From Robertmurraya dakarensis (lineage in GTDB: Bacteria > Bacillota > Bacilli > Bacillales > Cytobacillaceae): 64,000 nucleotides of DNA. The notes beneath the pieces are model-generated. The model was not told the DNA's origin, searched no databases, and saw only the letters and a program-made list of their open reading frames with translations. Of the stretch, positions 16,621 through 17,198 are shown in pieces. The stretch spans positions 772,552-836,551 of the forward strand of contig NZ_LT707408.1 in the NCBI RefSeq assembly GCF_900156875.1. Direction: 5' to 3'. A program made the position numbers and the translations under genes. The number at the start of each line of letters is the position of its first letter. The first letter of the stretch is position 1.

Positions 16621-16685
16621 TTGCCATACAATTGTAGGTGAAGTAAGGAGCATGATTGCTGAAAAATCATGATAAGGAGCACAAT

Positions 16686-17198
16686 ATGAAGCAAAAATTA
16701 TTATTCCTATTGCTCATTTCAGTCATATTATTAACGGCATGTGGGCAAACAAAATTGGAAGAACAAATTACACTATTAGATCAAAGTGAAAATGAAGTGA
16801 CGTTCCCTACTGAAAAACCGGCACTATTCTTTTTCATCACTACCTACACCTGAGGCCTTTGCCAACAGCAGCTAGTTCAGCTGCATAGTCAAATCGATAA
16901 GTTAGAAGATCTTGATGTAGAAATGTATATTATAAGCAATGATTTGCCTGAAGAACAAGTACAATTATACAATGATCTAGAACATTATTTCGGCTACAGC
17001 GTAACGTTTGTATCCGATCCAGACATGAAGTTAATTGAAATCTTGGGGATGGATAATACGGAGTCTGCTTATCGAGGATACGCATTAATGGATGAGGAAG
17101 GTAAGGTCATTTTTAATAGCAAAAATGACTACTGGGGAGACCAGTTTGATCAAACAGTAGAAGAAATCAAAGAGGAATATGCTAAATTAACAAAGTAA
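16686..17198 (+). CDS. Predicted selenocysteine-containing thioredoxin-fold lipoprotein (UGA at codon 56)
   Basis: Read with UGA 16851-16853 as selenocysteine, this is one continuous 170-residue frame. It has a lipoprotein signal peptide with lipobox LLTAC (Cys19), a beta strand PALFFFITTYT, the redox motif U56-G-L-C59, helix QQQLVQLHSQIDKL, strand VEMYIISND and a C-terminal half (SDPDMKLIEILGM, GYALMDEEGKVIF) typical of AhpC/TSA or TlpA-like redoxins. Sec replaces exactly the first Cys of CxxC, where redox selenoproteins carry it. AAGGAG precedes ATG 16686. A hairpin 20 bases after the UGA fits a bacterial SECIS. Likely an outer-leaflet thiol reductase or peroxidase. Alternative: a nonsense-mutated pseudogene, unlikely given the position and intact downstream frame. 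Confidence 0.82.
16868..16884 (+). promoter_or_regulatory. bSECIS-like hairpin for SelB-dependent UGA decoding
   Basis: GCAGCT (16868-16873), loop AGTTC, AGCTGC (16879-16884) form a perfect 6-bp stem. The loop starts 20 bases after the UGA and its second base is G followed by U, as in the E. coli fdhF element where a GU in the apical loop contacts SelB. Distance and loop composition fit the known bacterial consensus. Stem strength is modest. Confidence 0.7.

Follow-up and report, generated by a model that had tools for sequence, protein, structure and literature searches.

The window analysed here, a stretch of 64,000 nucleotides from Robertmurraya dakarensis (contig NZ_LT707408.1), carries on its forward strand a short gene whose product is almost certainly a selenoprotein. 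An earlier note on this DNA had described one UGA within an otherwise intact frame of 170 codons, and the sequence reads as it said: the single in-frame TGA is codon 56, followed by Gly, Leu and Cys (motif U56-G-L-C59, where U is selenocysteine, Sec). An AAGGAG site, a lipobox and a hairpin after the TAA frame these codons as one gene (Table 1). G-rich sites also precede most homologue starts. The hairpin after the TAA has 13 pairs and a T-rich 3' arm, and was not picked up by the consensus scanner; promoter-like sites number 9, compared with 6.1 (standard deviation 2.9) in shuffles. The window protein has a signal peptide with a lipobox and Cys, as expected of a lipoprotein. This lipobox had been noted before, and its Cys proved invariant in 18 of 18 rows of alignment A1 and in 79 of 79 rows of alignment A2, the latter selected by a lipobox expression that 78 of the 80 named loci described below satisfied.

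Table 1. Features of the selenoprotein gene and its surroundings (positions in the window)
Feature	Position	Strand	Basis
Ribosome-binding site AAGGAG	16674..16679	+	read in sequence
Selenoprotein gene (almost certain), peroxiredoxin-fold lipoprotein, 170 codons and TAA	16686..17198	+	
Lipoprotein signal peptide, lipobox LTAC, lipidated Cys C19	16686..16742	+	
T52 codon, invariant, occupies the peroxiredoxin Pro place	16839..16841	+	A2 conservation, AhpC-chain alignment
UGA codon, selenocysteine U56	16851..16853	+	
C59 codon, second residue of the UxxC pair, occupies the peroxidatic Cys place	16860..16862	+	AhpC alignment
Bacterial selenocysteine insertion sequence (SECIS) hairpin, six-pair stem 16868-16873 with 16879-16884, loop AGUUC	16868..16884	+	
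R130 codon, invariant, occupies the peroxiredoxin active-site Arg place	17073..17075	+	A2 conservation, AhpC-chain alignment
Terminator-like hairpin directly 3' of TAA	17207..17239	+	folding, -15.1 kcal/mol

Homologues of the gene keep the UGA. Among 61 genomes (the window's own and 60 relatives), 19 had a match at E ≤ 0.001, and TGA was present in 19 of the 23 matches listed; of the other four, three were redoxins at 20-21 bits and one was the front part of a broken copy. Both U56 and C59 occur in all 18 sequences of A1. A scan of named genomes found 94 relatives, of which 80 were kept, and every one of the 80 has TGA at the U56 codon and TGT or TGC three codons on. Since the scan relied on the peptide encoded across the SECIS, it favours Sec forms, but it fixed the peptide and not the codons. 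The hosts include Cytobacillus, Mesobacillus, Neobacillus, Robertmurraya, Planococcus, Salinibacillus and Halalkalibacter, as well as Alkalihalophilus pseudofirmus OF4, Ammoniphilus and Mesobacillus selenatarsenatis SF-1. Given the TGA counts in the 61 genomes and at the named loci, the UGA is not a chance occurrence. A random residue at position 56 and decayed sequence beyond it, which the earlier note had named as signs of a mistaken call, were not seen: homologues retain the UGA together with intact downstream sequence.

Profile searches were made without the peptide filter. Because profile A1 carries Cys at the Sec column, Cys forms should score no lower than Sec forms. The searches covered samples of 193 genomes of the family (E ≤ 1e-6), 397 of the order (E ≤ 1e-13) and 398 of the phylum (E ≤ 1e-6), with at most 18, 9 and 9 candidates scored per genome, respectively. 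Relatives with Cys in place of Sec, which it had been suggested to look for, did not turn up among the matches listed. In the family, every listed match of at least 147 bits has the TGA, and the next matches, at 51 bits or less, are without it; one of these is the front piece from genome G022, and the rest span about residues 43-163, as could be expected of peroxiredoxins. In the order, TGA is present in every listed match of at least 57 bits except a 72.5-bit C-terminal fragment in genome G722. None of the nine listed order matches below 55 bits has TGA, and the three that were inspected (L186-L188) comprise two AhpC-like proteins and one other peroxiredoxin-like protein. The group at 57-88 bits (17 loci) is a fourth subfamily and likewise has UxxC. 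The UGA is retained in four subfamilies, including members that share as little as 25% identity with the window protein, and the family thus shows what is expected of selenoproteins, an in-frame UGA conserved at a redox-motif position.

Four weak matches in the phylum also carry TGA (L149, L154, L190 and L189). We rejected the first three as members, as they are Sec-peroxiredoxins of the TxxU type, with Sec at the peroxidatic place, from other members of the phylum. The fourth (L189:1411-1659), truncated by a contig end, comes from another family of the phylum and has UxxC, the peptide QQLVEL and the same SECIS hairpin; judging by this fragment, the family probably reaches beyond Bacillales. 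A plasmid search gave no match. Bacillales-type genes are found in L045 and L101, whose record titles, Pseudomonas sp. ISL-84 and Chryseobacterium sp. ISL-80, look wrong. In a tree that also included 9 outgroups, a supported branch (99/96) has all 38 members on the same side. This branch is consistent with a single origin of the family, although two long outgroup branches call for care.

The hairpin downstream of the UGA has the properties of a bacterial SECIS element. It starts 14 nucleotides past the UGA, with 20 nucleotides from UGA to loop. Published constraints are an upper stem of 4-16 base pairs, a loop of 3-9 nucleotides with G in the first two positions, 16-37 nucleotides from UGA to loop, and a minimum free energy of -7.5 or lower (PMC13188914). 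The window hairpin (6 pairs, 5-nucleotide loop, G second) fits them, and 54-nucleotide folds range from -8.9 to -13.3 in 18 of 18 homologues; in one of these, L025, the lowest-energy fold differs and the stem is still able to form. The 104 genes comprise 94 distinct sequences, over which the statistics were taken. All 94 form the inner five pairs and 91 form all six (561 of 564 cells paired). Four stem pairs and the loop GU are invariant; pair 18-34 is GC in 76 sequences, UA in 12, CG in 3 and unpaired in 3, and pair 21-31 is GC in 60, AU in 33 and GU in 1. The numbers of paired cells and double-change cells and the covariation score each exceed all 500 shuffles, and sliding the stem partners abolishes most pairing.

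Because relatedness inflates covariation scores, the codon test weighs more. Where residue 65 is Glu, its codon is GAG in 57 of 57 cases, whereas GAG accounts for 27% of the Glu codons in the rest of these genes; the Leu66 codon ends in TG in 104 of 104 (27% elsewhere), and all 104 Leu63 codons start with C (56% elsewhere). Since synonymous codons are frozen at these three residues, the conserved peptide QLV[EQ]L reflects, at least in part, constraint on the RNA.

Mechanical open reading frames break at the UGA (16656-16853 and 16923-17198), as they would if it were a plain stop in a pseudogene or between two adjacent genes. However, when the window gene is compared with 43 homologues of subfamily 1, the differences at the first, second and third codon positions are 0.35, 0.15 and 0.59 after the UGA and 0.37, 0.18 and 0.62 before it. 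This pattern indicates that the part after the UGA is under selection at the protein level. With protein-like substitutions on both sides, the UGA kept across the four subfamilies, the SECIS covariation and the link to selA given below, we rejected both forms of the plain-stop reading, which is extremely improbable.

The genome that holds the window (5.48 Mb, 11 contigs) encodes the complete set of sel genes that had been proposed as a check. These are selA (564.5 bits, cut-off 267.9), selB (361.9 bits, cut-off 242.25), selD (400.2 bits, cut-off 125), which itself has an in-frame TGA, and one tRNA-Sec (57.1 bits, cut-off 47). Each is above its cut-off, and SelA, SelB, SelD and tRNA-Sec are thus present together, as expected where a selenoprotein is made. 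Two formate dehydrogenase alpha-like genes with in-frame TGA (L194 and G000:C11:3471889-3472644) are also found, one above the family cut-off and the other a partial match, along with several such genes lacking TGA. Adjoining selD is a SelW-like CxxU frame (L009:1100-1396, reverse strand; Pfam Rdx, 75.2 bits), whose open frame has two further TGA codons ahead of what is probably a later start. The formate dehydrogenase alpha gene with TGA that exceeds the cut-off and the SelW-like frame indicate that Sec decoding is in general use in this genome.

Sec decoding is in fact common in the window's family. A selA above the cut-off occurs in 172 of 193 family genomes and 181 of 397 genomes of the order, contrary to the earlier statement that selenoproteins are rare in Bacillaceae. 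No UGA-bearing genome lacks selA: it is present in all 102 such genomes of the family sample and all 77 of the order sample, compared with 70 of the remaining 91 and 104 of the remaining 320 genomes; the two samples overlap by 12 UGA-bearing genomes, giving 167 in total. Decoding of UGA as Trp, or suppression without a SECIS, would also allow the frame to be read through. We found no supporting evidence for this, TGA serves as the plain stop of members L017, L023 and L086, and the selA link and the SECIS argue against it, so that it was rejected and has next to no chance of being correct.

The body of the protein, which had been called thioredoxin-fold and AhpC/TSA-like, indeed matches Pfam AhpC-TSA (PF00578; 48.3 bits, cut-off 26) over residues 33-142, spanning the UGA, as does Pfam Redoxin, also above its cut-off. 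All 79 members match AhpC-TSA at E ≤ 0.001, and the fold predicted from a model with Cys in place of Sec is that of a peroxiredoxin. The active-site motif of peroxiredoxins is PxxxT(S)xxC plus an Arg. The window protein instead has TxxxU56xxC59 and keeps the Arg (R130); T52 stands at the Pro place and U56 at the Thr place, with Sec three residues ahead of the place of the peroxidatic Cys. This layout mixes peroxide-reducing and disulfide-reducing features. Thiol-disulfide oxidoreductases of the ResA/StoA/TlpA type have a CxxC-type pair at a helix start, and TlpA-type proteins have a cis-Pro where the present family has the peroxiredoxin-type Arg. They resemble the family in being extracytoplasmic, and weak NCBIfam matches to ResA and StoA occur in 26 and 8 of the 79 members, but every member seen has Sec. 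SCO1/SenC proteins are redoxin-fold lipoproteins too, and a sco1 gene lies upstream in subfamily 2 (see below); however, Sco has CxxxC, and a weak SCO1 match occurs in just 1 of 79 members. Sec-peroxiredoxins (TxxU) share the fold and the active-site Arg, with Sec at the peroxidatic place; in the present family it is three residues earlier, at the peroxiredoxin Thr/Ser place (compare the PxxxTxxU motif in PMC13188914).

The window protein passes no NCBIfam cut-off, and the best E-value of any of the 79 members to an NCBIfam model is 1e-9. The redoxin-fold model NF040769 (SelL-related redox protein) matches 71 of 79 weakly at E ≤ 0.001 (best 5.5e-9), and the window protein scores 25.6 bits against its curated cut-off of 120. 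NF053656 (TUGYCR motif thioredoxin fold (seleno)protein) matches 22 of 79 weakly (best 7.4e-6) and is absent from the NCBIfam matches of the window protein at E ≤ 10. Closest by description, on which the comparison was made, is the Prx-like thiol:disulfide oxidoreductase selenoprotein (PF00578, UxxC/UxxU, WP_010940744.1) in Table 1 of a 2026 review (PMC13188914), of the AhpC/TSA superfamily with UxxC and Sec first; the window protein agrees with its definition by PF00578 and UxxC. As that table lists, by domain, both this family and a Redoxin UxxC family (PF08534), the kind of protein is already known, and no Bacillales lipoprotein is named among the table's entries. In the available portion of a 2006 survey (PMC1794560), the Prx-like selenoprotein is listed for Deltaproteobacteria with one 'distant' Clostridia case, and Bacillales have 3 selenoproteins in 3 families. 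Compared with the protein as listed in these sources, the present family is lipoprotein, occurs mostly in Bacillales and has no Cys form among those found. The terms sought for such a protein are absent from the deep-Sep paper (PMC12013277). Judged by title and abstract, none of the papers listed in the literature searches describes such a protein, and earlier mention in Haft and Tolstoy 2025 or Haft and Gwadz 2023 is possible.

A steady neighbour pattern was found in subfamily 2 only. Upstream sequence is sufficient in 18 of the 19 subfamily-2 members, the exception (L098) starting at a contig end, and a sco1-type motif is present there in all 18. At the 14 named loci of this subfamily, sco1 ends 16-125 nucleotides ahead of the UGA gene on the same strand and is itself preceded by ctaG (13 by motif, plus L088); in A. 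pseudofirmus OF4 the two genes match Pfam Caa3_CtaG (193 bits) and SCO1-SenC (122.5 bits). This arrangement points to redox chemistry at envelope thiols or at the copper site of an oxidase, and all members could be thiol-disulfide reductases for oxidase copper-site assembly, with Sco1 and CtaG as partners. However, in the other subfamilies, to which the window gene belongs, the motif was found in 0 of 85 members within up to 2.4 kb upstream, and we consider so general a role unlikely. In subfamily 1, a formate-dehydrogenase-like gene (12 loci) and an MFS transporter gene (14 loci), identified by eye, recur 3-5 kb upstream. In subfamily 4, a glycerophosphodiester-phosphodiesterase-like gene, also assigned by eye, lies downstream at 3 of 17 loci (L162, L170 and L173).

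Taken together, we put the probability that 16686-17198 is a true selenoprotein gene, encoding a lipoprotein with a peroxiredoxin fold, at about 0.92; the earlier proposal of a new selenoprotein is upheld by the conserved UGA, the SECIS hairpin and the sel machinery. Several observations weigh against this reading or its extension to function. G022 has a frame-broken copy (L024, L033) and G722 only a fragment without the active site (L174), both in genomes with selA, and the gene is therefore dispensable. It is present in 0 of 6 other sampled genomes of the window's genus, 4 of which have selA. Two of the five covariation measures fall within the shuffles (pair count, reached by 473 of 500; pair-type count, by 230 of 500). 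Subfamily 2 was not recovered as one group in the tree, the sco1 link is restricted to it and the window gene has no telling neighbour, and the model with Cys for Sec is uninformative on chemistry.

We propose that the SECIS hairpin within the coding sequence would direct SelB to deliver Sec-tRNA at codon 56, the UGA, and that the protein would be exported and then tethered to the outer face of the membrane by a lipid on C19. There, U56 may act as an attacking selenolate that reduces a disulfide or peroxide substrate; a Se-S bond would then form between U56 and C59, with C59 resolving, and an envelope thiol reductase of the ResA/CcdA type could reset the protein. The enzymatic role is inferred. 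If the protein is a selenoprotein, the favoured substrate, at roughly even odds, is a disulfide of an envelope protein, perhaps Sco1 or the CuA site in the sco1-linked subfamily. The main rival, somewhat less probable, is an extracytoplasmic peroxidase in which H2O2 or a lipid peroxide reacts with U56, with C59 as the resolving residue and R130 orienting the peroxide as in peroxiredoxins. The peroxiredoxin fold and the invariant Arg argue for it, but T52 and U56 occupy the Pro and Thr places, and Sec is off the peroxidatic place at which L149, L154 and L190 have it. Some other substrate has a small share of the probability. A bolder reading, which we hold to be doubtful, is that of an obligate-selenium redoxin family of single origin, Sec-only and outside the membrane, with QLV[EQ]L held largely by the SECIS RNA and subfamily 2 acting as reductant of the Sco1/CuA copper site of the terminal oxidase.

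Ordinary annotation would break this gene at the UGA, taken as a stop codon. A large family for which no Cys form was found, and in which Sec stands where the nearest ordinary relatives carry Thr or Ser, is of a kind that detection methods could miss. It adds an extracytoplasmic selenoprotein to aerobic Bacillales and offers a clean case for asking why Sec is retained, together with a testable link between selenium and assembly of the oxidase copper site. If the bolder reading were true, aerobic respiration in subfamily 2 would lean on selenium.
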